64,000 bases of DNA, taken from contig VCMS01000120.1 of NCBI GenBank assembly GCA_022539475.1, positions 1 through 64,000 on the forward strand. Reading direction: 5' to 3'. Position numbers and translations under genes: made by a program. This document shows, one piece after another, positions 11,223-64,000 of the stretch. The notes under the pieces were generated by a model. The model was given only the letters and a program-made list of their open reading frames with translations, was not told the DNA's origin and did not search any database. Source of the DNA: Gracilaria domingensis. Taxonomy: Eukaryota; Rhodophyta; Florideophyceae; Gracilariales; Gracilariaceae. Each line of letters starts with the position of its first letter. The first letter of the stretch is position 1.

Positions 11223-11260
11223 CTCTGAGGAGGCCTCTCCCGAAAGGGAGACTCCCTCGT

Positions 11261-18050: not shown

Positions 18051-18269
18051 CAAGTACAAAGACTGCGAAACATATCTGCAAACGATAGTCCCCCTTGAGA
18101 AGGAGTCGTCGCAGAGGAACTCGGAATCTGAGGGATTTTTTCGGGGAGGCTCCACACCTCCAAACGCCAATCGAGCCTGATATGTGGGCGTAGAGCAGCC
18201 AGAGCGAGGGAACAAACCGGCGACCCCAACCCAATCCTGAATATTGGATGCCCTCGCAGTGTTGGGGGT

Positions 18270-26577: not shown

Positions 26578-26776
26578 GGCGCGGCGGCGATCGTGTCGTT
26601 GCCGCCATCGCCACGCGCCCATCGCGATGGCGATGCGTAGCTGCTTTACGTGTGGCAACTGTACACGTCGCGCGCTGGATCCAGTTGACTTTGTATCGCA
26701 GAGCCAAACAAGTACAAGCGCTCAGTTTCAACCGTATGCATCTCCCTTCGTACCTCAGCGCGCCCCGCACATCTCT

Positions 26777-45540: not shown

Positions 45541-45549
45541 TCCGAGGCA

Positions 45550-48500
45550 ATCAAAAGAAACTCCCGTCTTTTCAAGACGCTTTCAAAAGATGTGGATGCG
45601 GCGACGTCGGCCTGGCGCGACGACTTTTCGTTTTACGGAAAACTCTAGCGTCGGTACAGATGGAAACTAGGGATTCTTTTGAGACGGTGGTGTCTTTTCT
45701 TAGCCCTCTTGCTATTGGTCTCTTTTTGATCTCGTTCCTAGGTTCAGTACACGGCCCCTTTGTTCAGAAAATCCTTGAAAATGTCTTTTTGTTAGGCCAC
45801 GCATAATTACCGAGATTTCGCTTCCACGCCGTTTGTGTTTCAAAATAAATCTAGCCAAAAGAAGAATTGCAATAGAATTCCAAGTTTTCTTTCAAGAAGC
45901 AATATGTGGATGCAGTAGAAGCAACACACGAATTAATAGACCATAAAGTGCACTACGTTTCGAGCGCGAAAGATAAAAAACTATAAATATCCCCTTCGGA
46001 GGAAGGATTCCGAAGGATGCGGGGCCCATAACACAGATGAATCTGATGTGATCCCTTTGTGCCACCCCCTGTAGCGCCAGACTAATAAACACTCGATTCC
46101 GCGACGTTTTCGACGAGGAAAGCGCATCTGATCACTCTGAAAAATGACAAAGCTAGGCTAGAGCACTCATTCAGTTGCATTACATCATGGAAGAAACGTC
46201 AGTGCGAGGAAGGAGCACAGAATTCTCGTCACTTTTATGAATATGGAACCTTTTTGAAACTGTAAGAAAGGGCATGTAGAACACTTGTTTATGACAATTA
46301 CTGCATCATATGAAGAAAATTTCGGACTCAGCCGAAGGCGAAAGTTCGGGATGAAGAACGTTAAGGCTGAACACCTTTGTACAGTTGCTCTGATTTTCTT
46401 GAATAATTCTGTCGAACATAAGAAGTTTAGAGAACAGGTCAGCTCTTCATTCAGAATTTGGAGGAAGCTGAATGGGATAGTAGAATATTTTCTGTTTGCA
46501 AAAAAGCAGTATAGGGCCAATATTCTCGTAGAAGAATATGGTTAGAGTGGCTGTGAGAAAATCACTCTGATTGATGGATCTGTTGATTCGTCTTCTGCGC
46601 AGTAGATGGACCGCAACCCGCGCACTTCGCCAGAGATGCGCCACCATACTCCGAACCAGAACCACTGCAGAACCCGCAGCCCCAAGTCTGAGTGGTTCGG
46701 AGTTTTAGCGGCTTCACTCACCAGCGTGTTGCCTCGCGCGAGAGTTAACGGCGGCGGACGTAGCTTCGCCACACTCAGCCTTCTGAGTAAACAGGGAGGC
46801 ACCTGACTCCATCATCTTCATACCCCGTACAGCGTTTACTGCCGAAAAGGCATAGTGATCGCTGCTGATAGTAGCGATTTTATTGCCCCACTTGTGCGAT
46901 CGTCATCTTGGCGTGTGAATCGACCACTAGACTGCACGTAGAAAGCCCTTTTCCGCAGCAATCCAGATATGTGCCATTCTCTGTTAGTCATCTGCGACAG
47001 CCCACTACCAATCCTAAGTCATTTTGCGTCTTTACGAGTGAGTACGATCAATTCGTCAAATAAGTCACCGTCTGAGCACACGAACTGGCAGTAATTGACT
47101 CCGCAACCACTGACCCTGTTCAGCCGGTCAATCTTAGATACCCTGGGAATTCTGAATGATTTGAATCCTGTTTAGAGTTGGACCACATCTCTAGTTTCAT
47201 GGATATGGAAGACCTAACCGACGCAAAGCTGCGAACCTACCTCGAATCAGAGGCTGAAGAAGACGCAAACACCATGAGTGTTGCCAACATGGATATTCTA
47301 ATCACACGAAAACTCCACGAACGTGAAAGAAATGACTCTTCGCATCATAAATGTCTTTTCTACGCAGGATGGATTCTGATAGGTTATCAAAAACCATCCG
47401 AAGCTTGCTGTGCGTCACATCTACCGACAACAACAGCGGTGGGATCAATAGAGAACGCAGGCGATGGGAGCAATGGCTCTCTCTCCTCCATCCGGAGGGT
47501 AGAATTTTCCTTTACTAGAGAGTAAGTAATAGCGACGGTCCGTCTAATGCGCGAACCTTCACCTGGAAAAATTATAAGCGCGTACATGACGGTTCGAATA
47601 TCTGCAATATCCATAGATCTGCAATCTCCAACAGATCGTACCATCAGGGAAGCCGAAGCCATTGCAATAAGGCTCGGATTCAGATGCGAAACTCGTACAG
47701 GCCCCTCTCCACAAAAATGTTCAAGGGTTTAAAGAGACACGCGATGTGTGTCACAGAAGGTTTTGATATTGTTGTTACTGGTCCTCCCAGTCGCATGCGC
47801 AGTTCCAAATCCAGTCATCGCAGCCACGGCAACCCAAGTGCAAGCTCCAACATGGGAGCGAAGATTGATTGATTAATCATCTGGATCCAAAACCACCACA
47901 GAGCAGAGACGACGTCCACCTCATCCAAGCCCACATCCACCGTGCAAAGCCGTGGGAGAGCACTATTGGATTGATGAATGTCCGTTATCGCCCAATGACG
48001 AGAAATAGTCTCTGACGGTCGAGCCTGTCGCAGATGGTCGTGCAAAATCGATCCCATCCCAGAGAGAAATACGTAATCGAAGCAAATCGAGCACCGGTGA
48101 CAGATTGCAGCCACCTAAGCAGCAGACACCTTCGAACTGTTTTGTTGCAGTATCGGATGGCACCACAGAAACAGGTCCAATCGTCGTCGCAACGATAGTC
48201 GTGGTGACAGCCTCTTGTTACCAAGCATGCTAAACCGGCAGCGATTAAAGGCCTCGAAAAACTCGCAGCCATAGACAAGGTCCCAGCTAAACATTTGGGT
48301 TGTATATGTACGCTTTATGTCTGCAATAGGGGTTCACGTGACCACGCTATATATTGTTCGGCAAAATGTCATATAAAGTCATACATATGTCGAACATGTG
48401 TCGTATGAGTGCATAATGCATATCTGATGATGGCAAATGAAACGGGAAAAGAAGTAATCTTTTTATATTGGCACTGTGCCTGCTGCGTGCGAGTACCACG

Positions 48501-48990
48501 CATAAAACAACCATGCGCACGGCCTAGATGCGACGAAGATAGGGTATGCATCAGATTTTGGTCCAAAACAGGCATAAAGTAAGAACTTGAACCTCTCCAC
48601 CAGAAACAGACAGTATACATACGTCTGTCTCTTGCAGATGCTAGTTTTTGGCGAGGGTCGTCCAGAAATTGGCAAGGGTCGTCCAGTAAATTTTTTGAAA
48701 AAATATCGAGATCAATTATTTCAAAATTTGCAGATAATTGCTTGGGTCGTCCAGAATCTCTGTGCAGTAAATACTGGGGGGTTTTCCACTCGTGCTAGTT
48801 CTTTAGTCGCGGGCTACCTGAACGGTATTTCGCGAAGTCTAGGTTCAGTTTCCATTAAGGTGCACATTACACGATACCTTCTGCGGAATGATACCCTGCA
48901 ACGCATGGAATACTAGTGCTAGTACAGATGATGCCCATTCTGAAATCATACCGTTTTATTCGTATCTATTCTTCTATCGACCGCTTTTGC
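45550..48990. other. About 3.4 kb with no recognised gene
   Basis: Plus-strand frames at 46285-46545, 47178-47525 and 47547-47872 are somewhat protein-like. The one from 47178 starts in acidic sequence (MDMEDLTDAKLRTYLESEAE). They do not match a family I know and may be relics of one gene. A hairpin with 11-base arms ACTCCGAACCA (46648-46658) and TGGTTCGGAGT (46693-46703) lies within. Confidence 0.4.
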
Positions 48991-49118
48991 TAACCACTAC
49001 TTTGCTATATTACATGTACCATTTCCCCATAATGGAGCGGGTGTAGGCGCAATCTGCGGCAGATGCCGCAGAGGGCACCTCCACCATCGGCTGTATCGGT
49101 AGAACACATACGCACTCC

Positions 49119-49151
49119 GAGAGGATGAGGCGCGAAGCGCCTCATCCTCTC
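49119..49151. repeat. Perfect hairpin, 15-bp stem and 3-base loop
   Basis: GAGAGGATGAGGCGC, loop GAA, GCGCCTCATCCTCTC. The stem is perfect and GC-rich. It stands two bases from a second hairpin. Confidence 0.95.
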
Positions 49152-49153
49152 CG

Positions 49154-49203
49154 TTCCTCATGTAGGGAACCATGCCCAGATGCATGGTTCCCTACTTGAG
49201 GAA
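49154..49203. repeat. Hairpin, 22-bp stem with one mismatch
   Basis: Arms 49154-49175 (TTCCTCATGTAGGGAACCAT, then GC) and 49182-49203, with a 6-base loop CCAGAT. Only one position is unpaired. Confidence 0.95.
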
Positions 49204-49239
49204 CCTGCACCTGCAACTCGTGAGCTACCTCCGCATCAA

Positions 49240-50010
49240 AAGTCATTTACCTGTATACGCAAGCAGAAATTATCCATAAGTTAGTCAATGATCCGTTAGA
49301 TACATTTGAAATGCGATGGAACGTACCATTGATAAAACGAAACAGAAACGTTGCGCTAGAAAAGTCGAGGGACCTGGTAACTCGCAAACGGAAGAAGAAG
49401 CAGGAAAGGGATCGGTTAGATTACCAGCCCACCATATCATCGTAAACCGCGAAAGGTGTCGAAGCGAGAACTCACAAGCAAGGACACCGAGAATGCCCAT
49501 GCAGCAAACATACCGCAAGACGCGATAAACGAGAATCTAGCCTATATCCCAAACAAGTACCAGAATCGCCTATCCCGAACAGTCAGACAGTAAAACGACC
49601 AATTTCATTTTGTCCCTCAAGATCGATGATGGATCTGGAGAGATGAAATAAAATTGGTCGTTTACCTGTATACGCAAGCAGAAAGTATCCATAAGTTAGT
49701 CAATGCTCCGTTGGAAACATTTGAATTGCGATGGAACGTACCATTGATAAAGCAAAACAGAAACGTTGCGCTAGAAAAGTCGAGGGACCTAGTAACCCGC
49801 AAAAGGAAGAAGAAGAAGGAAAGGGATCGGTTAGATTACCAGCAATCCATTCATCGTAAAACGCGAAAGGTCTCGAAGCAAGAACTCACAAGCAACGACA
49901 CCGAGAATGCCCATGCAGCAAACATACCGCAAGATGCGATAAACGAGACAGAAACCTATGTCTCAACCAAGTACCAGAATCGCCTATCCCGAACAGGCAG
50001 AGCTAGAGCC
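49240..50010 (+). repeat. Direct repeat of about 350 bp flanking a small hairpin
   Basis: 49240-49590 and 49662-50010 are near-identical (roughly nine in ten bases by eye). The second copy keeps an open frame (49654-50028) coding for a Lys/Arg-rich peptide with V-T-R-K-R-K-K-K-K-E-R-D-R. It could be the basic part of a nuclear or DNA-binding protein. The first copy is not open throughout. It lies upstream of, and on the same strand as, the transposase. Confidence 0.8.
49593..49663. repeat. 71-bp hairpin between the direct repeats
   Basis: Arms AAACGACCAATTTCATTT (49593-49610) and AAATAAAATTGGTCGTTT (49646-49663) pair with one mismatch. It lies exactly at the junction of the two 350-bp repeats. 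Confidence 0.9.
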
Positions 50011-50275
50011 TATGGCGCAACGAAATGAACTATTGGTCGCGTACTTACAGTCGTCGGTTTGGGTTACCGGGTTCCCGTTTTCACCCTTCAACTCGTTCTA
50101 TATCTTGAACAAATAGAAGAAGTTGAGGGTGATTAGCTTATTTCCTGCCGTTTCCATGTCGCAGAGCGCGAAGAAACGCGGTGAGGATTGGTTAGTTTAG
50201 AGCAAAGATACGTGGAAGGATATGGAAGAACGTACGAAAAGACTGCACGGAATACATCCCTGAGATACGGATGAC

Positions 50276-50348
50276 TCCGTCCTACTTTCTTCCGCCCTCT
50301 ACTTTATGGAGCCTCCATAAAGTGGAGGGCGGGAAAAAGTACGACGGA
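50276..50348. repeat. Long hairpin, 36-bp stem, 1-base loop
   Basis: Arms 50276-50311 and 50313-50348 pair at 32 of 36 positions around a single base. The centre is ATGGAG-C-CTCCAT and the stem includes CGCCCTC/GAGGGCG. It lies about 370 bases before the transposase start and could form a cruciform or, if transcribed, a small-RNA precursor. Confidence 0.95.
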
Positions 50349-50718
50349 GCGGAGTATAACGCGATGATATCGATGGCATGGCTCACGACGGTAACGGAAG
50401 TTCGGACGTCGGAGGCGCGGCGGCGGCGGCGAAGGGAAGAGATTTATTTTTCTGTGCGAGATTGGACAAGTGTACAGCGTACAACGTTGGGAAACCACAG
50501 GTTTATAACCAGTGGTAGATAATACGAGAAGTACACCCTTGTGTTGAGGTCGACGTGTACCTACGTTCCTTTTTGAACGAAAGCACGTGATTTAAACTCA
50601 AAATATATTCTCCGTTCTCAGCATGACGTCGATCTTGACTGTCGCTCGACCTCCTTCTCCCTTCGGACGCCCTTTCCTTGCAGTCTTTGTCGTCGTTTCT
50701 CGTTCAGTTCTTCTTCCC

Positions 50719-53700
50719 ATGGTCTACTACTGTACACATAAGAAGCGTGGGTGCCCCTTCGTTACTCGCCGAGGAGTCTTATCCCTTCAACAGCATGTCA
50801 ACCATTGCCCGTTTCGTCTGAAAGCAGCGCTGGAAGACGACAATAGCCGGCCCATTCGGAGAAGCAAGCGTCTCAAGCTTTCCGCACCCGCGCCCGCATC
50901 TTCCGAAACGGTCACTGCCCCTTGTCGCCTTCCCGAGCCTCCAGTGTCCGAGGACATCGTCGACCCCACTCCGTGCGCCCCTCCCATTCCGGACACTTCG
51001 CATTGTGTTTCTCCTTCCCCGGCTCCCGCGTCATTAGAGCGAGAACACGGAAGCAGTTCCCGCCCAGTGCCTTCTGAGGAGGCCCTCGGTGATTTGCATA
51101 TGGATTATCTCACGGTTTGTCTGGCTTCAGTAGCTTCCAACCTTGGTCATCGTGAGGCGGACGAGCTAATTGGGCTACTTCGGGACCCGCGATTCTCGCA
51201 AAAGCGATTCAACGAGACCATAACAAGTTCCAAGCGCTGTACAGAACTGAAGAAGGCCATTTTCGAACGATACGCCTCAAAGGACGGTTTCAATCGCAGA
51301 ACTGTCTCGCCAGAAGGATGTAAGTTCAGCGCCACCCTCTACACGAGAGACCCCGTTCAGACACTTGTGAAACAGCTCCAGTTGGCTAACAACGAAAACA
51401 CATTCTTCCACCCTATACCTCAGACCCACTCCACGAAAATATCTCACCCCATGTCCGGCTCTCTCGCAAGAGACGCCACCTCAAAACTTAAGGAAATGGT
51501 CATGGGCTCTTTGGATAGTAGAATAGTGTGGTACTCCCAAGAAATAAGTTACAGTGAATCTTTCGTAGGTCTTCTGCAGGTATACACCGATAAGTCTTCA
51601 ACAACTCTAAAGCAAACATCGGTTACCGCCTATCCTCTTCACCTCATATTTCTCAACTTCTCCGACCAGCTTCGCCGTAAGTGTATCCGTGATGACCTCA
51701 CAGTAGTGGCATACTTCCCTACCACACTGATCGAGGTTTCCGCATCTGAAGCAGACGCAATGCCATTTGTTTCTAGCAAGTCTCTACGCGAGTCCAGGAT
51801 GCAAATCCTTCAAGAATCTCTTCGTCAAGTCCTGGAGCCCATTCTAAATCTCACGCAGAAAGGTTTTCAGTTCATCGGCGAAGACAAACTAAGTCGAGTG
51901 TGCCATCCTCTGCTTGCAAGTTATTGTGCGGATATTCCTGAGGCTAAGGACATTCTGTCCATTCTTCATGGGACCAAAACGGAAAGCCCGTGTCATAGAT
52001 GCAAAGCCCCTCGCTCATCTTTATGCAGTCCTATTCCCACCTCATTCAACGGACGTTCTCAAAAGCACACGAAAAGCATCCGAAAGACATACACAGCTAT
52101 CTTGCAACATGCACAAAAAGACGAGGCGGAAAGACGTCCACGTCGTGCGAGGGAGAGGAGATCTCAAGCGGATACTCTGATGCGTTCAAATTCCATATCT
52201 CTCATTCCTTCGTTCCTCGAAACTTCCGTAAGCCTTGGAATGATCCCGGGATTGTCTCCATACAGTCTGTTCTCATTCGAACCATTACACAACTTGCATC
52301 TCGGCATCTCAAAGTTGATAAACGGCCACAATCGAGAGACTGCAGTCAGACACCCTGTGCACCACAATAGGAACATCTGCATCGCGTTCATTTCGAACGA
52401 TACGCACCCAACTCCTCAACCATGCAAACGCAATTCTAGCTGCCATAGAACGCGATTATCCTGCCAAAGGTTTACATATCGATTTCTCCACGCAGGAGAA
52501 AGGCGAATCTTTGAATGGTATCTTCACGAAAGACGGTCTCCGTGGAATGCTGGAGGCCAAAAACTACAAAGCACTTGACATGGTCTTTCCCTTCATAGGA
52601 GCATTCTTTGACATATGCTGTGGAGAACAGGACGTTGCCCCAATCACAACCGTTTTCTCTCAGTATTCGGACTTGCTCTCGACCTTATTCAGATACAATC
52701 GTGACCCGTATTGGACTGAAAGCTCTCTCCTGTGTCTTAGTTCGGAGATTGAAGCCTTCAAGCGTTCCGCAACAAAGACTCTGGCGGATTTTCATCCCTC
52801 CAGACTGGGAACTCTGAAGTTTCATCTTCTCGATCATCTCGTGGACGATATTCGCCGTCTGGGAAGTATCAAGTATTACGACGCAGGCATATACGAACAT
52901 GCACACCTGCTATTTAAAAGACACTACAAAAAGACGTCCAGAAGAACAGCAACGGCTGTGGAGGAGACTATTCGCTCCATTGAGCACGGACATGTTAGAA
53001 AGCAATGGAATGGCAATACTCCTTACCAGCGTAATCCAGGTTTACCAGGAACTTCCACACAGCTTCCTCGGTTTGCAATGAGAGGGCGTTCTTTCACTTT
53101 ACGAGCTCTTCAACATTGTGTTTCAAGTATGTCCAGTTCAAAAACATGGACTGCTGTTAGAGAAATGTTCTCAAGTACGGACACAAGGTCGATTCTTGAT
53201 CAAATTGGTGAACAGGCCCTTCCTCCTTTCCTCAGTCTCGTGAAAGAAACACTGGATGAGCACTCTATTACATACTTCCCAGAAAAGACAAGGATAACTC
53301 TGGTGAATTCGGCCGTCGTGAAAGGCGGTTTCGTTCCGACTCTTGAACACTTCGATTCGTCTTCTAAGGCACTTAAGCTGGGACGACCCAAATACCCCAT
53401 CATCCAACGTGTCTTCGCTTCTCCAGCATTTGGTCCCAGTAGAAAGCCAAAGTTTTCCACTGTATTGGTAAGCGGAGAAGATTCAGAGACTTGGGTTGCC
53501 CAGGTAGTCGCTCTGATTCGAATATCTCTCCTTGATTCTGCACTTACCGCACCAGAGGTGGCATTCGTCCGGTATTTCGAGGTTTTACCCCCCGCAACAA
53601 ACATCGACCACATATTGAAATGCATATCTTTACGGTGGGCTACAAACGATGAAAAGAACCACACTCTTCCGTTCCCTCGTCATTCCAAAGCGGAGACTAT

Positions 53701-53896
53701 CGTAGAGTTAACTCCTTGGTACGAGATGGTTCCGGCTTCTGCACTACAGGGAACTGTCCATGTTGTTCGATCAAACTACCCTGCTCCACCTTTTTGTCCT
53801 CCACTTCAATGGTTCCAACACCGATTCTACATCAATCGATTCTATCATGATTCAGATGAAGGACCAACTGAGCACGTTGATCTTGTACAGCCTTAA
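50719..53896 (+). CDS. Plavaka-like transposase, one frame change
   Basis: Nuclear DDE transposase that would cut and join the transposon ends. The start at 50719 (MVYYCTHKKRGCPF) aligns with the copy A start; an earlier in-frame ATG exists at 50623. Parts in order: a C2HC-type zinc finger (residues 5-30); a Pro/Ser-rich linker; the DDE region with Y-T-D-K-S-S-T-T-L (first acid), Y-P-L-H-L-I-F-L-N-F and R-R-K-C-I; the block S-Y-C-A-D-I-P-E-A with C-H-R-C; F-E-P-L-H-N-L-H-L-G; and L-K-F-H-L-L-D-H with Y-E-H-A-H-L-L-F (last acid). The frame changes near 52320 (the 52578 frame to the 53896 frame). Compared with copy A, two bases seem missing there, so this copy is probably inactive unless the change is a sequence error. 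The stop codon shares TTAA with the convergent gene. Confidence 0.82.
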
Positions 53897-54864
53897 ACAT
53901 TAAGGGCTCCATCTTCTACATGTTCACCTTGTGGTGCCTTTTCTTGTGATCCTGTGTTAATTCCGAAATCGTTCATGTCCATTTCCTTGAAGTCCATATC
54001 CCCTTCCTCGCATTCACCAACGAAGCAATCGCTAATAGACCCCAATCTTCGGCTCACACTGTCAATAAAAAATTGTTCTTTCACAGTGAGGTAAAGTCTT
54101 CCGTTCGACGGCATTCGATATCCAAATGTAGCCTCTCTCATGTCATTACCAAGAACCTTAGTCCAATCTTCCATTGTCGTTCCAAAATTATGAAACTCGC
54201 TGGAATTGGTCCTCAAGACATGTTGCCTAACATCCCCCAGAACATTCTTTAAACACAGAGGTAGCAGTTCAGCAAACTTCTTTGTAAATAGTTTCTGTCT
54301 CTGGCCACCCCTTGACACATCCGTACTTAGAAGGCTCACAACCGTCAACACCCAAGCGTCCAAACGTGCGAGCAACAGTATTGTGCCATCTAAAAAGGTG
54401 CCCGTATCCTTGTCTTCCACATCATACCCAATAAACTCCTTCAGCACTTGTACCCCGACACGGTTTCGGAAGAACAAGTCTTGATCTTCCGTCGGCATAT
54501 CCTCGACATTGTCCGCATTGGAGTACTTTAGACGAAGAAATGGGGCTTTTCTCCACCATGAAGTGTTCGGTACACCATTTTCGTCAAGACGCAGTATGTT
54601 CTCCTGCGCTTCCTTCAACTGCATTGTGAGTTCGTCAGCATTCTCTTCTACCAGCTTTGTTCTTCTCCAAATCAGATCGTACCCCAGGAGCAGAAATAGT
54701 TTATCCCTCGTATTTCTCTTACGAACGCCCACGACGTCACTCATGGTCTGCCGCATTCTCTGCCTAAGGCACATATCTGCACAAAGTTCCAGTATACACC
54801 TGTCGGTAAGAGATGCTTTTCTAATACCTTCCCAGCTCAACTCCTTCAACTCGCTTTCAACCAT
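53893..54864 (-). CDS. Conserved transposon accessory protein of unknown function
   Basis: A frame of 327 codons; the first ATG is at 54864 and the frame is open upstream to about 54900. The protein is mostly helical and charged, with a Lys/Glu-rich start (M-V-E-S-E-L-K-E-L), a middle with Q-D-L-F-F-R-N and K-E-F-I-G-Y-D-V, and P-S-N-G-R-L-Y-L-T-V before an acidic, Asp/Glu/Met-rich tail. There is no signal peptide or membrane span. No known family was recognised. Relics of the same protein lie in the same place in copy A, so it belongs to this transposon family and may help transposition or targeting. It overlaps the coiled-coil frame at a run of six G on its own strand and ends in the TTAA shared with the transposase stop. 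It could be the C-terminal part of the coiled-coil protein. Confidence 0.65.
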   Translation of the reverse strand: MVESELKELSWEGIRKASLTDRCILELCADMCLRQRMRQTMSDVVGVRKRNTRDKLFLLLGYDLIWRRTKLVEENADELTMQLKEAQENILRLDENGVPNTSWWRKAPFLRLKYSNADNVEDMPTEDQDLFFRNRVGVQVLKEFIGYDVEDKDTGTFLDGTILLLARLDAWVLTVVSLLSTDVSRGGQRQKLFTKKFAELLPLCLKNVLGDVRQHVLRTNSSEFHNFGTTMEDWTKVLGNDMREATFGYRMPSNGRLYLTVKEQFFIDSVSRRLGSISDCFVGECEEGDMDFKEMDMNDFGINTGSQEKAPQGEHVEDGALNV

Positions 54865-54869
54865 TTTCT

Positions 54870-56288
54870 TCAGCAAAGCATCTGGCCCCCCTCTACCGAC
54901 GGTGTGAACATGCCAAAACTGCCCAAGAGCTCCACGGGGTTTTTAGGAACCATGTATGAACCACCTTCCTCCGGCTCAATAAGCCCTTCCCCACTCTCAG
55001 TTGCGTCTTCCACCTTCTCGGCACGGTTACCCCAATTTCGGGTGAGCGACTCACCTTCGAGCCATAGCTCACTTGTTTCTCTCCTTGCCCACGTCAGCAT
55101 GTTGTGATACACTGCTCGAGCAACCCCTCGAAACTCGTCGCACACCTCAATTTTATGCTTCTTTCGACCTGTCTGCCCAGGTTCACCAGCACGTGTACTC
55201 CTATCTCCCTCCTGTTTCAGTGCCCCTCTTAGCCCTTCAATGACTAGATCCTTCTCTTCAAGCCTCTTTTTCAAAGCCGTACTCTGCTCTTGGGCGACCT
55301 TCACTAGAATTCCCCGAACCATCAAGTCCTCTTGTAGCGTCTTAACCTTTTCTTTCAAGCAATTCAGTTCATTTAAAAGATCAGGTCTGTTCATAGAGCT
55401 TGAATTCACACCAGTTTGGATATCTTCCGTTATTTCCCTAGCTTCTTCGGCGACAGGCCCCGGTAATGCCGCAGGATTCGGTGTTATTTCGTTATCGGAA
55501 CTATCCTCATGTGCCATAGCCTTAGCCACGAGAGGCTGCAGGCGTTCTGTGTCCACCCTTGGCACGGCTCCGAGCTCCAACTCCCGTGTATGTCCTCCTC
55601 CATGGCATGGTATATCAGATGAATTGGGCCTCGTACGAGCTGCAACGGCCTCCGTTCTGGAAAGAGGGGAAGGTCGAAAAGTAACTCGTCTATCAGTTGT
55701 CTCTCGATTTCTTATTGTCTTTCTCCCTTGTCCGGACCCATTGCGAGGCATGATACGATTCATAGCGGCCCCAGTTCTAGAAGAGAGGGATGGACGTGAC
55801 GATCTTAATATACTAGGACTCTCACGACTTCTCGTCATTGTCCCTTGTTGTCCAGATCCACTGGGCGGCGTAACCCGCGCCCCAGTAGCTCCGGTCTTCG
55901 ATATCGGCCGGGGACATGAAGGTTTTGGTGTCATACGAACCTCTTCGGTTCCAGTTGTCATGCCCTCCTGTCCTGACCCGCTGGGCCGAGTTACCTCATC
56001 TTCTTGAGGAGCAGAGACAGATGCACGATTTGCATTATCGGCAGTTGACGGCACGACATCGTTCGCTGATCCACGAATTCTTGACGCAATCCCGGAAGAC
56101 GCTCCGCTGCGAGATGGGCGAGAGAGTCCTGTAGAAGGACGCCCACTGACTCTCTCCTTCGTCGAGGACGACTTCCGTTTAGGAAGTGCGGTGCTTGTAG
56201 CCTGATTCGTATCATCCGATGCTCTTCTCTTCTTCTGTCCACTCTTGTTCCGCTGCGTACTATTTCGCTTTCTCGGCGTTATACCCAT
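54870..56288 (-). CDS. Coiled-coil protein with long disordered basic N-terminus
   Basis: A 472-residue frame starting at ATG 56288. The first 270 residues are rich in Arg, Ser, Thr, Pro and Gly, with several repeats of the type R-P/N-x-S-G-S-G-Q-E/Q-G-x-x-T (for example PSGSGQEGMTTG and PSGSGQQGTMTR) about 45 residues apart. Residues about 300-360 form a Leu/Lys/Glu-rich coiled coil (LLNELNCLKEKVKTLQEDL). A basic linker and an acidic C-terminal part follow. It has no enzyme motif. It could be a scaffold that pairs proteins or binds nucleic acid through its basic half. It sits between the SET gene and the 327-residue gene, and its end overlaps the latter at a G run. Confidence 0.6.
   Translation of the reverse strand: MGITPRKRNSTQRNKSGQKKRRASDDTNQATSTALPKRKSSSTKERVSGRPSTGLSRPSRSGASSGIASRIRGSANDVVPSTADNANRASVSAPQEDEVTRPSGSGQEGMTTGTEEVRMTPKPSCPRPISKTGATGARVTPPSGSGQQGTMTRSRESPSILRSSRPSLSSRTGAAMNRIMPRNGSGQGRKTIRNRETTDRRVTFRPSPLSRTEAVAARTRPNSSDIPCHGGGHTRELELGAVPRVDTERLQPLVAKAMAHEDSSDNEITPNPAALPGPVAEEAREITEDIQTGVNSSSMNRPDLLNELNCLKEKVKTLQEDLMVRGILVKVAQEQSTALKKRLEEKDLVIEGLRGALKQEGDRSTRAGEPGQTGRKKHKIEVCDEFRGVARAVYHNMLTWARRETSELWLEGESLTRNWGNRAEKVEDATESGEGLIEPEEGGSYMVPKNPVELLGSFGMFTPSVEGGQMLC
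54886..54891 (-). other. Run of six G at a frame junction
   Basis: On the minus strand GGTAGAGGGGGGCCAGATG is where the coiled-coil frame (S-V-E-G-G, then stop) and the 327-residue frame (G-G-P-D-A-L-L-K-K-M-V) overlap. A one-base slip within the run would link them. It may be a miscounted homopolymer or a slippery site. Confidence 0.55.
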
Positions 56289-56325
56289 GCTGTGGAGATA
56301 AACAGGGTAATGAAACGAAATTGTT

Positions 56326-56356
56326 GGGGAGGGGGGGAGGGGGTGGGGGGGGGGGG
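56326..56356 (+). repeat. G-rich run with G-quadruplex potential
   Basis: GGGG-A-GGGGGGG-A-GGGGG-T-GGGGGGGGGGGG gives at least four G tracts within 31 bases. It lies between the coiled-coil gene start (56288) and the SET frame end (56573), so in the 3' flank of one gene and the promoter side of the next. Confidence 0.85.
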
Positions 56357-56572
56357 TGCATGGTTCAGATATTCCGGGAGACTCCGCAGTTCCTGCTTTT
56401 TAGGAATTTGAGGTGCCCAATGGGTCGCAAATATCGCCGTTACAGATGAAGAGCTCCAGTGTACATGTACAACAACGCGTATTGCAGGCAGCTGCAACAC
56501 TCACAAGCATATTTACTTTCTATTCGCTACTGAACTCATCTATTGCTCCAATGTCAGAGCCCAGTCCCAGGC

Positions 56573-57451
56573 TTACTGCTCTCCGTAGTCGAAATACAAC
56601 TCTTCGCCCCTCTCAATATCTCTTACTGCTCTACAACGAAGTAGAGCATAGTTAGAAAGGTCTGACTTAAACTGTATCACGGACTTCGCTTCCACCACCT
56701 GCACATTGGCACTTCGAGTCCTGTTTGACCGGGGCTCCGATAAATCGGGATCCCCGGCATGATATCCGGCGTCGTTAATGTAGCCCCCGATACAAAAAGG
56801 CTGCGGGACAATGTAGACTTCGCTCTCCTTTCTATCCTGAGCCTGTCCTGGTCTGTTTCTCAGGTGCAGAAACTCCGTACCAGTCACAGTGACCATCATA
56901 GAAAACAACTTGTACCGCACTGGAGTTGCTCCGAGACAGCCACTTCCATACGTTAAGTGTCTTTCCTTCCGGTTCGTCAGATCCGTGTATACCAAAGTTC
57001 CATAGAAATGACAGATAGTTTCCCCAGCCAATATCTTATGTTCCGTGAACACCCCCATACCAGCACGGGGATGTCGGATCTTAGAAGATGCTATATGTAA
57101 GCGATAGCGATTGGCTTCAACAGTCAACAGCATATGCATATCCATAAGATTCAGAGCTCCTCGGTACTTCCCCTCCCAAAGATCTACAGTACGCTCTCCA
57201 CACTTGTCGACAAAGTCCCAGTCCTTCCAGTATCTTCCTAGGAACTGAGTAATATGTCCAGGCATCACTTGGTACTGGGGGTAACCAAATGGAGCCTCCC
57301 ATTCAAGCCGACCTCGGTCCCGATGTGGAACCCGTTCATAGGTCGTTGAAGCCGCATCCACCACCTCCTGTTCAACCAGGATGTCATTCTTCCCCCCCGA
57401 ATAACTTCGGCCATAAGAGTCGTTAGATGGTGCTTCGCATGGCTGAAACAT
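56573..57451 (-). CDS. SET-domain protein encoded by the transposon
   Basis: A 292-codon frame. The SET domain covers about residues 117-290: G-M-G-V-F-T-E-H-K-I-L-A-G (131-143), C-H-F-Y-G, then G-G-Y-I-N-D-A-G (222-229) in the place of the usual N-H-S-C, and R-G-E-E-L-Y-F-D-Y-G (281-290) at the end. The fold is that of S-adenosylmethionine-dependent lysine methyltransferases, many of which modify histones; the substrate here is unknown. No pre-SET or post-SET cysteine cluster was seen. Its frame overlaps the end of the DNA methyltransferase frame by 187 bases, and a run of seven G lies at the natural switch point. The two domains may therefore be one protein. Copy A has a relic of the same domain. 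Confidence 0.8.
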   Translation of the reverse strand: MFQPCEAPSNDSYGRSYSGGKNDILVEQEVVDAASTTYERVPHRDRGRLEWEAPFGYPQYQVMPGHITQFLGRYWKDWDFVDKCGERTVDLWEGKYRGALNLMDMHMLLTVEANRYRLHIASSKIRHPRAGMGVFTEHKILAGETICHFYGTLVYTDLTNRKERHLTYGSGCLGATPVRYKLFSMMVTVTGTEFLHLRNRPGQAQDRKESEVYIVPQPFCIGGYINDAGYHAGDPDLSEPRSNRTRSANVQVVEAKSVIQFKSDLSNYALLRCRAVRDIERGEELYFDYGEQ

Positions 57452-58992
57452 GGCCTATTCTTCTCGCACCCCAAGAACTTCCTATGCTTTGTCAGCGATA
57501 GGCACGCCATACCCGTAGAAAAAGTTCCCGCGAACATGTCCATGACAAGATCACCCGGTCTTGTGAAGCGACATATCAACTCCTTCATCAACTCCCTCGA
57601 CTTCTGCTCCGGTCTTATGTACTGCCCACCTGGTACTGAGCTACCTGGCTCATGTACCTTCCATATCAACCACTCCCCCGCCCTCGGTTTGGGCACCCGG
57701 TCAATTACATTTCTGTTAGCCGGGAAAGTGGAAGGAATGAAATTGTTCTCCTCAAATGGAGTAAGACTGGCTTCCTCCGATGGTCGCAATCCACGCTTCA
57801 CCACATGAACGGCGTACTCCGTTACGGGCTGTATCCCAAACTTCCGTGGATTCCCTCCAACATTACTGCGATCCCGGATGAACACCAGTGGATTCGCATC
57901 CACTTTAAACGAAGGCATGAGTTCTGGTTTACCTTCGCTTCCAGCTTCATCTTTCGTACTCGCCGTTTCCGAAAGTATCCTGTGCCACACATGAAACTGT
58001 GCCATGGCACAGAATATAATGAAGTGCCCACCTGACCGAAGCGCGGAACTAATTAAGTCAGCCATACGGATCATGTCTTCCTCACTGAAGACATCGTGAC
58101 CACTATTCCGTTTGTTCCTCTTCCTTCGAGTGTTAAAGGGAGGGTCTGTTAGGACAAGCTGTGCCTCACCCCATAAAATCTCACTCTGATTCACAAACGT
58201 TTCGTGTGTGTGCCTCAGGTCCTTCATGTCACAGTTGTACGCTACAAAGTGTGACTTTCTCATCCCCTTCCACACCTTGTCCATATTCATTCGAAGGAGA
58301 CTGGATATCCCCTTCATGGGCGGCTCAATACCAGTCTTTTGGATGTTGTAACCAGCAACCCGAGATTCATGCTCCGCAAGATTCACCGGCTTCTCGAACT
58401 CGTCGCTATCGGAGCTCACGAGGTTCATATACTCTCGACGAGGTGGGGGTGGGGCAGACTTGGTCGAAGAAGGTTCGGCATTACCGGAAGTTTTAGGGGT
58501 TTTCGTCAGTTCAATATCAGGTTTCGCGTGAATGCCGACATGGAACCCTGCCGCATGACGCATATCCTGTATCGGTTTCCATAGCAACTCCGAAAACTTC
58601 TGAAATCGAGCAGGCAACTCACCGGAGTCAGAGCTAGATACGGTATCCATCCGTATCTCCGAAAACTCTATCCAGTTCCTCATCTGATCAACCCGTAAGC
58701 TATAGAGGCTATCGTGGGTGCATATGGTTTCGAGGTCTGTCAAAAACTTTTTAGCCAGTATTCGCAGGTTTGTATCGCATTCATCACTCAAGGTCTCCAC
58801 CGATCCACTAGTACTGCTCTGTGGCACATCCTTTGTGTTGAATCGAGTACTCTGGCTCGGCGGGGCATAACCAGACTCCCGTGTCTCTAGCGCTGTATAC
58901 TTCAACGTCTGCATATTCATGTAAATGTATGGTTTCACCATGTGCTGACGTTCGTGTATCCAAGATGAGCCGCAAAACAACTCCATGCCCAT
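57265..58992 (-). CDS. DNA amino-methyltransferase (N6-adenine or N4-cytosine type)
   Basis: A 575-codon frame. L-V-L-T-D-P-P-F-N-T (residues 279-288) is catalytic motif IV, and D-M-F-A-G-T-F-S-T-G (485-494) followed by E510 is the S-adenosylmethionine-binding motif I with its ribose-binding acid. The order IV before I is that of the beta class, as in the N6_N4_Mtase family of bacteria. DPPF favours adenine over cytosine (which usually has SPPY) but does not prove it. The first 240 residues are Ser/Pro-rich and lack a known domain. The frame start overlaps the preceding NLS-bearing frame by 58 bases. Such enzymes would methylate DNA in the nucleus, perhaps the transposon itself or its targets. 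All key motifs look intact. Confidence 0.8.
   Translation of the reverse strand: MGMELFCGSSWIHERQHMVKPYIYMNMQTLKYTALETRESGYAPPSQSTRFNTKDVPQSSTSGSVETLSDECDTNLRILAKKFLTDLETICTHDSLYSLRVDQMRNWIEFSEIRMDTVSSSDSGELPARFQKFSELLWKPIQDMRHAAGFHVGIHAKPDIELTKTPKTSGNAEPSSTKSAPPPPRREYMNLVSSDSDEFEKPVNLAEHESRVAGYNIQKTGIEPPMKGISSLLRMNMDKVWKGMRKSHFVAYNCDMKDLRHTHETFVNQSEILWGEAQLVLTDPPFNTRRKRNKRNSGHDVFSEEDMIRMADLISSALRSGGHFIIFCAMAQFHVWHRILSETASTKDEAGSEGKPELMPSFKVDANPLVFIRDRSNVGGNPRKFGIQPVTEYAVHVVKRGLRPSEEASLTPFEENNFIPSTFPANRNVIDRVPKPRAGEWLIWKVHEPGSSVPGGQYIRPEQKSRELMKELICRFTRPGDLVMDMFAGTFSTGMACLSLTKHRKFLGCEKNRPCFSHAKHHLTTLMAEVIRGGRMTSWLNRRWWMRLQRPMNGFHIGTEVGLNGRLHLVTPSTK
57392..57398 (-). other. Run of seven G where the methyltransferase and SET frames meet
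   Basis: On the minus strand, TTCGGGGGGGAAGAATGACA is read I-R-G-G-R-M-T in the methyltransferase frame and S-G-G-K-N-D-I in the SET frame. After this point the methyltransferase frame loses family-like sequence, and before it the SET frame does. This suggests the two were continuous, and that the run was miscounted, mutated or used for slippage. Confidence 0.6.
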
Positions 58993-59520
58993 ACGACCTC
59001 ACTGATACCGAATCCCAGTCGATCACAGTTGTCTTTGGAGAACGACGTAAAAGTGGGTATGTACACAGCTGGTGCATGGTTCACTTTTCGTTTCTTTTTC
59101 GGTTGTTTCTTCTTCATCATTCGGATGTTGTCGTTATCTCCCATTATGTGGCCGAGGTATGATAAGTATATAACGACCTCAAATGGGTTCACAGCTGTTG
59201 GTGGGATGAACACTGTCGTCTTCAGAACCTGCTTTCTCCTGGTCATGAAATAACCAACCAGGCATCGCACCGGTAGGTATATACCCATATCCATAGAGAG
59301 AAGGAAAAAATCGCGCAGTCTCTGGTCCTCATCCCCGTCCTTCTTGTCAAGAAGCTTCGTTACAAGATATCGCTGTTCCACAGGTTTGTTATTCACAACA
59401 CTCTTTCGCAGCTGTTGCAGTGTCAAGTTCTGCAGGTTCTTGGAGTTAGTGGCCTCCTCAAACATCTTCCTTGCCTCCGGAATATCCTTATAGTTCTCGG
59501 CGCAGAACTCTAATTAACCC
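58935..59520 (-). CDS. Segment upstream of the methyltransferase with an SV40-type nuclear localisation motif
   Basis: The frame is open from about 59515 (F-C-A-E-N-Y-K-D-I-P-E-A-R-K) with a first ATG at 59465, giving 176 codons. It holds a helical N-terminal part, hydrophobic middle strands, the exact motif PKKKRKV (59082-59102) in the context K-K-K-Q-P-K-K-K-R-K-V, and a C-terminal stretch ending at 58935. It is probably the N-terminal part of the methyltransferase protein, separated from it by a frame change or an intron. The motif predicts nuclear import, as a chromatin or DNA modifier would need. The fold is not recognised. Confidence 0.55.
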
Positions 59521-59810
59521 TCTAAACCCCACTCCCGTGCCGATCAGGCCTCCATCGCTGTCCTCTAAAGCATCGCGAAGAACCAAGAAAAGTCTGACAT
59601 ATGCAATGGAACGCCGGAGCGGGCACTCATGTCGATAGATTGTTATCTCCTCTTCGCTGATAAACATCGGTGGAAATCCATCGNGACATGCGAAGCCCAT
59701 CGCAATTACTGATCGTGCTCCTATGCCTTCGTAGGCCGCACTCTCCTTGTGCAGCACTTGGAACGAGTTGCAGATTTTGCTTCGGGGCTGTCAAAAATAT
59801 GCTGTTTTCT
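59488..59810 (-). pseudogene. Further upstream coding segment of the cargo gene
   Basis: A frame open from about 59800 to the stop at 59488, with E-S-A-A-Y-E-G-I-G-A-R-S-V-I-A-M-G-F-A-C and later E-E-E-I-T-I-Y. It abuts the next segment with a one-base shift. Its 5' edge follows TTTTTGACAG, which resembles a splice acceptor. An undetermined base (N) lies at 59694. It is probably part of the methyltransferase-SET gene, either as an exon or with a frame error. Confidence 0.4.
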
Positions 59811-60013
59811 GCTCATCAACGTCGCGACCATAGTCTCCAAGCGAACTCAGTCAAAAGTTATCGTTGCCATCAGCGAAGGATACTACTGCATCAACATCTT
59901 TGGCGTCGCTGCTGTTGTGCATTAGGGGTTCGTTCTCATTCGGGCGTTCAATTGCTGTACCAGAAAACGAAGATTTATTTCAATTCAGTCTCCACTCGTT
60001 GCGATTGTCCTTT

Positions 60014-60760
60014 TCAGGACTTGTATCTCTCACCGGAACCCATGCATCTGCGACTTTGGCTCCTCAGATTCACTTCTCCTTCTGGTGATACCCAAAGCTC
60101 GGCAGCACTAAGCTCTTCCTCTTCATGAGTCCACATTCCAATACATATCCTCTCCCTATGCAGTTGACGCATGGTTTGGACCATAAAGAGACCCATGACT
60201 TCGGCGTTGGTCTCGGGTTTGATCCCGAATGCAACTCTCTCCTCGTATCAGACACTGTCTGCAGCGCCTTACCAGGCCTTATTTCAGAGTCTTCGTTAAC
60301 CACCTTAACGCTTCTTCGAAGCTTTTGGCTTTCAGTACTGGCCAGTTCACGTTCTATTGATATCTTCATATCTGTGAGCTCAACTGCTTCTTGGGTCTGA
60401 AAGCCTTTCCGGAAATCTTTATCAGATGTAATTCTTCTAGTGCATGAGGCATTTTCCAGTGATGTAGCGCATTTCTCTCTCCGCATTGTCCTAAATGTCT
60501 TCTGAGACCAACTGGAGTCAGTTCTTGGTACGTTGCTCGGTCCACGGTTTTGGCCTTCGACATTTCCAAAAGCCCTTCTCCTGCTGCCCCTCGTTTTGGT
60601 TCGGTGATTCTCGGCTTCGTCGCTTGATGACAGCTCAATCTCGGGGAAGCCAAGCTTCTCATCCGACAAAAAGTCCATTTCCCAATTTGAATCGGACAGA
60701 GATCTTTTTGCCGAAGATTTGCGCTCCAGTCTTGCATCGGTGTACGATCTGGACTCGGTC
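60014..60760 (-). pseudogene. Basic, Ser-rich N-terminal segment of the cargo gene
   Basis: A 202-codon frame (60070-60678) is open upstream to about 60768. It is rich in Arg, Ser, Glu and Lys (for example R-S-L-S-D-S-N-W-E-M-D-F-L-S-D-E) and ends with W-S-K-P-C-V-N-C-I-G-R-G-Y-V-L-E-C-G, a possible small zinc-binding turn. A second frame continues to 60014. The composition suggests a disordered, nucleic-acid-binding region. It has no ATG earlier than 60678 in its frame. Whether it joins the downstream segments by splicing cannot be told from sequence alone. Confidence 0.4.
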
Positions 60761-61201
60761 CTCGGTATCGTGCTCTATCTGCCGTTCTTTCCTTTGACGA
60801 CAGCACTCCTATCCGTCCTTCTCTTAGTGCCTCGCATCTTTGATCCCACAACCTACAACTCGACGATCGAGGTACAGAGCTCGGCACTACCTAGCCTTCT
60901 TACCAAAAAGCTCAGACAAGCCGGGTGTCGTAAGCGATCTTAGAGTGCCATCTTGTGCGACGTTGAAACAACTCTTAGAGTGAAATCGGAGTTTGTTCAC
61001 CTGACACGCGTACAGTTCTGTTCCCCTGTTGTGAGTTAGGTGCTGCGTCAATATGTGCTGTAGCCCAACATCATGTATCTTAGAAGGTCTGTTAAACGAG
61101 GTTAACAAGGAATAAGCATTTGCGTGTAACCCAATTCTCTGTAAGAAAGTGCTCCACAGCTGGTGCTCAAATTAGAGAGATCCAGATAAGAGCTTCCTAA
61201 G

Positions 61202-61218
61202 GAACGGCGGCCGTTCCG
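61202..61218. repeat. Palindrome near the proposed right end of copy B
   Basis: GGAACGGC-G-GCCGTTCC is a perfect palindrome about 20 bases inside the proposed terminus at 61240. Confidence 0.8.
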
Positions 61219-61240
61219 TTCCAAGCAATATACAGTAGTG

Positions 61241-63597
61241 TGCAAGTTTTGTCCAAATTCATAACAAAACAAGCAGTGGAAAGTCTCCATGAAAGGTTTT
61301 ATGGGCACTAGAGTACATAAAAATAGAAGAGTGTGTACGTGGAGATCAATAACACGTCCAGATGGAGGATTACACATCTACCTCTCAGTCCAATTTCAGC
61401 CCCAAAATCCCACTGGTTTCGTCGCTACAGCTCATTCTTTATCGTGTTTTAGCTACTTCTCGGCAGCTCACACGTCCTCACACCCCGTGTGGAGCCCATC
61501 CACAGCACCGTTCTCGGACATATTCACTGAGTAGATGCCAGCGCGTACTATCTCACAGCAGTAGCGATGGCCTGAAAACCTTAGGGTCTTTGGTACTTGC
61601 TAACCTATGGGGTCAGATAGTTGCCAAGGGGTCTCTTGCTTTACCGCAGGATGAAGGCGCAGCTCGAGCAGCCTAGGTATCGGCCGCGAGGCGCCTCGAC
61701 CTCAGCTGTGGTGCACTGTAACGCAGTAAACCACGTGTACTATCTACACTACCTATGGTACAAAAAAATACATAAAAATTAGAGAACCATTGGAGGGCAA
61801 CCAAAGCACACGTATTCCATGTCTTGGATCTCAAGACAGCACGACCAATGACAGACCACCAGGCGTCGAATCTAAGGCTCAATATACTACATACCTCCCC
61901 CTTTAGACTTTTCCGTCTCGGGAAAGTCCCATTGAGATGTTCGATGTGGGCTCAGTTTCCGGACGACGTTGGCGGGCTGGAGATTAACGGGCATGAGAGA
62001 AAGAAAGGGCAGGTCTGGACCGGCATTGCAAGTCACCGATGTGTTTGAAAAATTGCAAGTTTTGACCTGAACTCCGATGGAAGATGTCCGCTACAGATCA
62101 TATTGGCACTGCGGATGTTCAAAAAAAAAGTTAAACAGCAAAAATAAATTTACCAAACTCATCGGGTGTACTAAGTTTCGACCTAGCTGCTCACAACAGT
62201 TTTGATATATACCACTCTGTAAGTCTTCGTGCACGGGGATAATTGGACACCTACCACGTACTTTCCAGCGTAAACGTTGCGCAAAACGATTCATTTTGAA
62301 AGTCTTAACATGTAACAAAATGTAAGCCTCGCTGTGGAGCAATAGATTTCCGCTTTCGGATGCATCTACTACATCTTGGTCACGGAATCATTGATATTGG
62401 ATGCATTATATACTACCTAAGATTTATGCTGCATTGTGACCAGAGTTTGCAATATTGAAATGATGCAGATAGCTTTTCGATGGCGAACAAAGAATATTCG
62501 AACAAAGATTATTGATATAGATATTTTGAGAATAGGTTTCAGTAGACATATTTTTCAATTGTTGTGAAGCTCGTACAACATTTTCGGAACAGGAAAATTT
62601 TGACATGCGAAGTAATAGTTCTAGTACGATTTAACGAGTAAACGAAAGCTGCGAAAACATTTCCATAACAAGATGAATATTAATAACTCTAAATGTCTGA
62701 AGATAAATATAGAAATACTAGTCGATACTATTAGGCCAATCCTTTTATGTTATTGAATGTTTAGGATGGAAACGTATCTAACCTTCATTCTCGATCGCCT
62801 TAAACTTTTAGAAATCGTGGCTTACATTCTTGTACACCTTAATTTTTTTAGCCTCATTCTTTCCACTGGGAGAGAATAAATTCTTAAAAATACCTGTACG
62901 AGGCCGAGTTTTCAAAGATATTTAACGTTGTTCTGCTGGTAAAACAACCTCCATCCGAGAACGTCACTAGTCGCTACACCAGGTTGTTTTATTTCTTTCC
63001 ACTTGGAAAGAAGAAATTCTTAACAAAACGCATACGACAGCGAGTCCTGAAAGATTTGCAACGTTGCACTCCAGGTAAGACAACATGTATCCGAGGTTGC
63101 ACTTAATCGCTGGGCTTTAGTCTATACTACAAACGATAGAACCCCCTGGATTTGCGGATCGTCTGTGTTCTGCAAAGTGGAATATAGTCTGTTCGCTTTG
63201 GAAACTAAGCTAGTTTTGGGTCTATTTGGGGCGCGCGAGGGGGTAGCAGAGGCTGGCACTCAAAAAATCAAGAAATTTTGGAATATTAAATTCCATCTCG
63301 CGCAGTTTAGTTCTTGGGTGCCCTAGTTTTTGTAGAGGTTCTACTTCGCCGCACCACCCCATTCACTCTTTTCCGCGACCCTCTCTCAAAACTGCACTCG
63401 TGCTAGTTTGCGTTTCCATTTTCTCCCATGTTGCAATGCCAATCGCAACTCATCCCACCTCAATCATCCCATCACTTCTTCCCAGTCCACACCACCCCCG
63501 CTATTTACCCATTTCTCGCCCATCACGCGTTCATTTTGTAGAAGTCAGGTGCACAACTCTCCCCCTTCTCGTATACCCGCCTCGCCCCAAAACGGCT
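61241..63597. other. No recognised gene; AT-rich with a diverged tandem duplication
   Basis: About 2.3 kb. 62856-62980 and 62986-63115 are diverged copies of a unit of about 130 bases (TTCTTTCCAC, GAAATTCTTAA, CAACGTTG, TAAGACAAC). 63350-63597 is C-rich and lies in the 3' flank of the leucine-zipper gene. Other short frames have no motif. Confidence 0.5.
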
Positions 63598-64000
63598 TCA
63601 AATCCCTCCCATCCTTCTCTCCTCCTGTCCCCTCAGAATCCCCTTCGCAGTCCGCGCTACCTCCGCCGCACTCCTAAACCCAGTCACCACCGGAGCTCCC
63701 ACTCCCTCCCGCGGCACCTCCTCCACCACCTTTTTCATCTCCTTACGCCTCTTCTTCAGACGGCTCTTCCCATCCCCAACCCCACCACCCTTTGTCTTCG
63801 GTGTCACAGGAGACCCCTTCTGCACCGCCACCCTTCCCACACTTCCCTTCTCCGTCTTTCCCTCCACACCTCCTTTCACCGTCTCCTCTTCCACCAATCT
63901 TTGCCTTTTGCACAGCTTCTTCACCTCCTTCTCCAGCACGTCCAACCTCTCGTTCAGAACCCTATTCTCCTCCCGCAACTCTCCAACCTCCCTTCCCGCA
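63598..64000 (-). CDS. Leucine-zipper protein, C-terminal part (window edge)
   Basis: The frame is open from the right window edge and ends at 63598. Near its visible start, E-L-R-E-E-N-R-V-L-N-E-R-L-D-V-L-E-K-E-V-K-K-L places Leu at four successive heptad positions, a clear leucine zipper. The rest is Lys/Arg/Gly-rich and probably disordered, with K-S-R-L-K-K-R-R-K-E-M-K-K as a likely nuclear localisation sequence. It may be a bZIP transcription factor; the DNA-binding basic region would lie outside the window, so a general coiled-coil protein is also possible. The upstream part and start are not visible. Confidence 0.5.
   Translation of the reverse strand, partial: AGREVGELREENRVLNERLDVLEKEVKKLCKRQRLVEEETVKGGVEGKTEKGSVGRVAVQKGSPVTPKTKGGGVGDGKSRLKKRRKEMKKVVEEVPREGVGAPVVTGFRSAAEVARTAKGILRGQEERRMGGI

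Follow-up and report, generated by a model that had tools for sequence, protein, structure and literature searches.

Plavaka DNA transposons are defined by a target site duplication of 2 or 3 bp, and some of those in fungi carry TET/JBP genes (Kojima, 2025; PMC12730594). The HarbingerS and MuDR transposons of Phytophthora carry a SET methyltransferase gene (cited in PMC12730594), and retrotransposons of dinoflagellates and charophytes carry DNA methyltransferases (DNMTs), as do DIRS elements with a Dam-like adenine methyltransferase (de Mendoza, 2018; PMC5890265). In Amoebidium, giant repeats contain a Plavaka transposase (PMC11244446). Here we analyzed a window of 64,000 nucleotides from the red alga Gracilaria domingensis (contig VCMS01000120.1 of assembly GCA_022539475.1, positions 1 to 64,000 of the forward strand). 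Positions 48622-59683 of the window hold the left half of a DNA transposon that can reach about 22.8 kb in full and ends in inverted CGTCTG termini; among its genes is a DNA methyltransferase fused to a SET domain. Genome-wide counts refer to this 77.9-Mb assembly, in which the window lies on contig C120; other copies are named after their contigs (C5, C8, C28, C29 and so on). The best explanation overall is a Plavaka-related cut-and-paste DNA transposon, abundant in this red alga and recently active, that moves with a kit for marking itself; taken whole, with the function we infer for it, we give this explanation an even chance of being right.

The genes on which the comparison turns were as follows.

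50596-53896, plus strand: Plavaka-related transposase (Pfam PF18759, 8.5e-19, 68.4 bits, cut-off 26.3)
56573-59683, minus strand: DNA methyltransferase-SET gene, a 1055-residue fusion in other copies, here frameshifted and truncated at its 5' part by an N at 59684
57448-58161, minus strand: N6_N4_Mtase domain (Pfam PF01555, 2.8e-16), with DPPF before FAGTFSTG
56582-57061, minus strand: SET domain (Pfam PF00856, 1.8e-8)

An earlier note, made from the letters of this stretch, had described a block of frames on one strand meeting the stop of a Plavaka-like transposase and had named a methyltransferase and a SET frame in that block. The profile matches agree with all three identities, and the transposase stop does adjoin the minus-strand gene block. 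In the window the transposase was split into frames 50596-52578 (660 residues) and 52322-53896 (524 residues); the first of these contained CHRC, a candidate for the C(2)C motif that CMC/CACTA transposases have between their catalytic acidic residues. The methyltransferase and SET had been read as separate frames, which holds for the window (methyltransferase frame 57265-58998 with its DPPF and FAGT motifs, SET frame 56573-57454, both on the minus strand) and for close copies, but in most copies scored the two are one fusion protein. The methyltransferase frame was found at 76 scored places including the window, at 89-100% identity, among 955 first-look candidates. At 60 of the 75 other places the match departed from the window frame around residue 538, the point from which the fusion runs on; at 13 it kept to the window frame throughout, and 2 were intermediate. 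The 1055-residue frame was uninterrupted in all four copies read, which had been picked because such a frame was listed for them. The window has a one-base deletion at a G run, and the same deletion was present in ten other loci. An alignment of the methyltransferase/SET junction in 28 distinct copies, most of them fetched for closeness to the window, showed 9 without and 19 with an indel. Four separate genes were ruled out because the methyltransferase and SET parts are joined in most copies, and chance frames were ruled out by the many near-identical copies.

The linkage between these genes and the transposase was then compared among copies. A DNA search with window positions 53000-63300 scored 20 other copies of this segment. 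In 15 of these the match ran unbroken from the transposase end for 6 kb or more, at 97-100% identity; in four of the remaining five it included the transposase end but was shorter, and in C168 the transposase end matched as a separate piece. With up to 3 mismatches, the motif totals were 199 for the methyltransferase, 347 for the transposase, 240 for a dioxygenase-like protein of the same unit (see below) and 0 for the controls. On contigs C1-C137, for which exact matches were listed for all three motifs, there were 58 methyltransferase loci. The transposase motif lay within 8 kb of 37 of them on the expected side and strand, mostly about 5.85 kb away, while wrong-side controls gave 3; the dioxygenase-like motif was in its expected place and strand at 28 loci (wrong side, 0), and both partners were so placed at 19. 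The claim of a Plavaka-related transposon with both a DNA methyltransferase and a SET gene in it was thus upheld among these exact matches, and the outcome named as fatal to it, transposase copies never flanked by these genes, did not occur.

The ends of the unit were determined from the copies.

48622-48644, plus strand: left terminus, CGTCTGTCTCTTGCAGATGCTAG, whose outer CGTCTG is inverted at the right end
59684: single N, a probable assembly join that truncates the window copy (sequence reading and copy comparison)
63160-64000, minus strand: inverted right end of another copy, running off the window (97% identity to the C29 right end)

A search with window positions 44000-53200 placed the start of 27 of 28 other scored copies no more than 10 bases from 48622, and the flanking DNA was dissimilar among the window and 10 fetched left ends. 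The left end of C28 read CATCTG; that of C168 was not found within the stretch fetched. The right end was reached in C29 by a stepwise outward walk, and 24 of 26 other scored copies terminated within 10 bases of it. Read inwards, the right end is CGTCTGTGTTCTGCAAAGTGG and the left end is CGTCTGTCTCTTGCAGATGC. With up to 2 mismatches there were 563 left and 577 right ends genome-wide, and none for reversed control patterns. The limits first proposed, 53893 and 60760, therefore have to be given up on both sides. None of the 20 copies matching the window segment crossed the N at 59684, where 11 stopped exactly, and other repeated DNA follows it. The junction is either real or an assembly join, probably the latter. 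Window positions 59685-64000 were a different repeat of 4.3 kb, found at 99.7% on C301 and C175, which ends in the inverted right end of the other copy. The methyltransferase and SET pair does lie inside the mobile unit as the note had supposed, but the unit is longer and holds further genes, including a likely dioxygenase.

We also examined target site duplications. Pairing of the 100 places listed first for either end gave 46 adjacent left-right pairs, of which 33 were shorter than 15 kb and 13 were 15 kb or longer. Flanks were read for 7 of the short pairs and all 13 long pairs, all 20 picked by the end pattern CGTCTG..CAGACG. Matching 2-bp flanks were present in 10 of these 20 copies, namely in 7 of 7 short copies and in 3 of 13 long ones (C6, C8 and C28); at 1/16 for each copy, the chance of this is about 4e-9 for the short copies, 0.04 for the long ones and 9e-8 for all. 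The C8 copy (20.1 kb) had GT on both sides and exact transposase, methyltransferase and dioxygenase motifs inside, and the C28 copy (15.4 kb) had AA on both sides with transposase and methyltransferase motifs inside, so that copies flanked by duplications do contain the methyltransferase. In the C6 copy the transposase and dioxygenase motifs were unusually spaced, and an exact methyltransferase motif was missing. A retroelement was ruled out by these 2-bp duplications at inverted termini and by the lack of any reverse transcriptase match in the scanned frames of the unit. Among 120 pairs from 16 copies the median divergence was 1.9%, and the closest pair, C591 and C91, differed at 2 of 7918 bases; haplotype duplicates may be included in these pairs.

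Whether the cargo is kept by selection was assessed from variants in the copies. For singletons, omega was 0.66 for the transposase (23 copies), 0.75 for the methyltransferase-SET gene (28 copies) and 0.80 for the 834-residue region that lies between them (23 copies). For variants present in at least 3 copies, it was 0.10, 0.26 and 0.52, respectively. The contrast between shared and singleton variants gave Fisher P values of 3e-4 for the transposase and 1e-3 for the methyltransferase-SET gene, which are indicative only because related copies are not independent; a methyltransferase-SET count on 24 copies agreed with the 28-copy result. The data showed that shared variants of the transposase and the methyltransferase-SET gene are under purifying selection and that singletons are nearer neutral. 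These values bear directly on whether the cargo consists of passengers, host or viral genes caught by chance without benefit to the element, which we consider quite unlikely: the drop in omega from 0.75 to 0.26 and the 60 of 75 places that follow the fused frame speak against it, whereas the metabolic look of an epimerase gene and HAD-like genes in the unit, the spread of the frameshifted subfamily and the abundance of short copies (33 of the 46 end pairs) speak for it. Two short copies, of 10.3 and 10.5 kb, were sampled at four 120-base points each and gave transposase, spacer, 415-residue region and 342-residue region in this order, and therefore have no room for the methyltransferase-SET or dioxygenase gene.

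The full gene order was read from the C29 copy (C29:294202-316973, 22,772 bp, of which 326 are N). It consisted of the transposase (plus strand), the region of 509- and 349-residue frames or one 834-residue frame (minus strand), the methyltransferase-SET gene (minus strand), a spacer containing inverted repeats, a divergent plus-strand frame some 1300 residues long, HAD-like frames on both strands, a 415-residue frame, a ribulose-phosphate epimerase and a 342-residue frame. The C168 copy departed from the others at L035:4848, where they carry on. The spacer between the divergent genes, seen in the right flanks of L010, L013 and L016, consisted of direct and inverted repeats nested in one another, which differed from copy to copy; it could be a shared promoter. 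The ribulose-phosphate 3-epimerase gene (L056:2774-3091 and the C168 copy) matched PF00834 at 3e-24 and 4e-30 in pieces from C29 and C168. The HAD-like matches were weak (4.7e-5 at best), the 415-residue frame had no convincing match in a profile scan or a PDB sequence search, and the 342-residue frame had no Pfam match. One further gene region lies next to the transposase.

53893-56399, minus strand: 509- and 349-residue frames, one 834-residue frame in some copies, coiled-coil-like by eye only

Neither frame had a Pfam match. The coiled-coil frame and a 327-residue frame had been reported here, and both were present as frames, but they were joined as 834 residues in 5 of 21 copies; in L010, for example, the 509- and 349/327-residue frames were fused in this way. 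The junction was open in those 5 copies, and the other 16, including the window, had one G fewer (C29 was left uncounted for its many small indels), so either one broken gene or two overlapping genes would fit.

The activity of the fusion was predicted from its motifs and profile matches. A DPPF/Y motif before an FxGxG-type motif is the order of the beta class, and DPP rather than SPP is the rule for adenine (N6) over N4 cytosine methyltransferases. The methyltransferase domain matched the solved adenine methyltransferases DpnA, CcrM, MboIIA and RsrI, and the PvuII N4 enzyme was the weakest methyltransferase match in the PDB profile comparison. Because of DPPF and the nearest solved enzymes, the fusion was tentatively assigned to adenine, and it is predicted to methylate adenine in element DNA. 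The SET domain weakly matched the profiles of KMT5A/SETD8 and EZH2; its C-terminus (EELYFNYG or EELYFDYG) has the YG motif, and INDA stands at the place of the canonical SET motif, NHSC. Among 8000 scored candidates from 5.8 billion proteins, 5 were relatives of the fusion, two of them with both Pfam domains at 37-41% identity. DPP and DxFxGTFxT were invariant in all 6 aligned fusion-related sequences. A close viral relative as the source of the gene was rejected, as IMG/VR scans gave 3 generic methyltransferase matches or none and GTDB genomes gave 2 generic ones.

The second divergent gene, the frame of about 1300 residues, had a ParB-like part and a dioxygenase-like part, with one stop in C168 and a frameshift in C29. 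The fold of 2OG-Fe(II) dioxygenases goes with an HxD...H...R motif; in 6 aligned sequences RQ..HTDF was invariant, GRGD..H was present in 5 and RYHxY in 4; P0012 had neither of the latter two, and P0009 had G for R. From these motifs the protein is likely a dioxygenase. Its dioxygenase-like part had no Pfam match (P0006 and P0010-P0013 at E<=5, and a 584-residue frame), so that it was not placed in Tet_JBP, and PDB sequence searches gave nothing useful. For the ParB-like part there was no Pfam match, and no PHROG match for P0013; a profile link of the P0005 N-terminus to this part was within the range of 20 shuffles. The whole query found two Gracilaria domingensis proteins at 88-93% (P0006 and P0007), and its second half found a third at 91% and four further proteins at 34-36%, two of which share the layout of a long N-terminal part followed by the dioxygenase-like part. 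In NCBI, P0006 and P0007 are labelled 'mediator subunit 15-like' and 'cell-wall-anchored protein SasA'; their models omit a conserved 185-residue core, which P0009 retains.

A dioxygenase-like protein could also serve to undo host CG methylation, as has been proposed for TET/JBP in fungal transposons, and cytosine methylation is reported in relatives of Gracilaria (PMC9861306). However, the observed/expected CpG ratio of the element was 0.94, CpG had no surplus of G:C to A:T transitions (32 at 336 sites, against 107 at 1232 sites elsewhere), and the C5 methyltransferase family PF00145 was not matched in a six-frame search of the genome, which intron-split genes may escape. With a dioxygenase-like part that lacks any Pfam match, anti-silencing of CG methylation appears highly improbable.

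The methyltransferase, dioxygenase-like, ParB-like and sugar-phosphate (HAD and epimerase) genes were also considered together as a phage-like hypermodification cassette, which would build a modified base and so mask the element from host nucleases or repair during transposition. In C29 these genes are enclosed by the two ends, and other copies have them too; the methyltransferase matches the phage family phrog_67 at 1.9e-23, and phages are described that combine C5 methyltransferases, TET/JBP and glycosyltransferases (PMC12730594). We consider such a cassette unlikely, since no glycosyltransferase or base kinase was recognised among the scanned frames, the HAD matches do not exceed the level given above, and the epimerase could be captured host cargo.

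Two sets of repeats were found inside the left end.

48648-48757, plus strand: three subterminal repeats with GGGTCGTCCAG (repeat family D3)
49242-50001, no strand: tandem duplication of about 345 bp, 415 bp apart (repeat families D1 and D2), also present in the C29 copy

The subterminal repeats are possible transposase binding sites. In the C29 copy exact GGGTCGTCCAG occurred at positions 55 and 123 only, and none was present at the right end. Dam methylation times the transposition of IS10, and methylation at the ends of this element might likewise control transposase binding after replication, with the left-end repeats as targets of a methyltransferase that is under selection like the transposase. 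Such timing is decidedly unlikely, since the right end lacks the exact repeat and a role in timing would leave the SET domain and the dioxygenase-like protein unexplained.

In the self-marking explanation that we prefer, the methyltransferase-SET fusion would methylate adenine in element DNA, the SET part would methylate lysine of histones or of another protein on the same chromatin, and the dioxygenase-like protein would remove or further oxidise the base mark. The three activities together might keep copies of the element open to expression and transposition, as anti-silencing or self-marking. A stronger form, which we regard as rather unlikely yet worth stating, is a complete self-serving system of base and chromatin modification, in which a fused adenine and lysine writer and a divergent ParB-like base oxidiser, perhaps with a base unknown in eukaryotes, mark a sizeable share of the genome.

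Several results weigh against the preferred explanation. The 2-bp duplication was missing in 10 of 13 copies of 15 kb or longer, including all four of about 22.8 kb (C29, C5, C34 and C23); assembly joins between near-identical copies may account for this. C29, the basis of the full gene order, is interrupted by the 326 N and has one region rich in one-base indels. Twelve of the 58 methyltransferase loci had neither partner among the exact matches listed, and the 834-residue region showed no significant selection contrast (23 copies). The dioxygenase is read from motifs only, and the ParB-like part had weak matches (PHROG 0.0014 for P0006 and 0.018 for P0010). The short copies, which share these ends, cannot accommodate the methyltransferase and SET pair, so that the cargo is not needed in cis; they would have arisen by internal deletion and would probably be mobilised in trans. 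The copies that look newest (C591, C91, C163, C323 and C50) and the window share the one-base methyltransferase/SET deletion, which breaks the frame in both members of the closest pair, C591 and C91. The latest amplification therefore did not require the fused form in cis, provided that the G runs were sequenced at their true lengths; the differences between them may be a sequencing problem.

Elsewhere in the window, a second, diverged Plavaka transposase was split between frames at 4891-6860 on the minus strand (PF18759, 3.3e-6 and 2.9e-12). Retroelement remains were present at 9204-12709 (minus strand) and 18132-21638 (plus strand), with RVT_1 at 1.8e-32 and a sub-threshold RVT_2 match at 5.8e-6. 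A separate SET-domain frame (4.5e-5) at 25026-26645 on the minus strand lay in a G+C-rich low-complexity region and may be a host gene.

No DNA transposon with a DNA methyltransferase-SET pair, in red algae or elsewhere, came up in our searches of the open-access literature; Repbase reports lay outside this search. With this element it can be asked directly whether mobile DNA marks itself and its chromatin with enzymes of its own, a question that may also be relevant to how red algal genomes fill up with elements of this sort. Compared with the fungal Plavaka elements as described by Kojima (2025; PMC12730594), it has the same Pfam transposase family, 2-bp duplications and an epigenetic enzyme inside, but it resides in a red alga, reaches 22.8 kb, and carries a methyltransferase-SET fusion and a dioxygenase-like protein that has no Pfam match and is joined to a ParB-like part. 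Its termini, CGTCTG..CAGACG, differ from TGT..ACA of PlavakaA and CATCA..TGATG of PlavakaB (PMC12730594), so that it belongs to neither and is filed as Plavaka-related only. HarbingerS and MuDR of Phytophthora are likewise DNA transposons with a SET methyltransferase, but they belong to other superfamilies, and the account of them in PMC12730594 mentions no fused DNA methyltransferase. The elements of de Mendoza (2018; PMC5890265) resemble it in having their own DNA methyltransferase and hundreds of copies, whereas they are retrotransposons with C5 or Dam-type enzymes, for which that account describes no SET fusion. The Amoebidium repeats share the Plavaka transposase and are gene-rich units of up to 50 kb, with red algal hits noted, but they carry tyrosine-recombinase genes, and no methyltransferase-SET or dioxygenase cargo is described in the account of them (PMC11244446). 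Transposons with a single epigenetic gene are thus known, and what appears to be new here is the DNA methyltransferase-SET fusion together with a probable dioxygenase.

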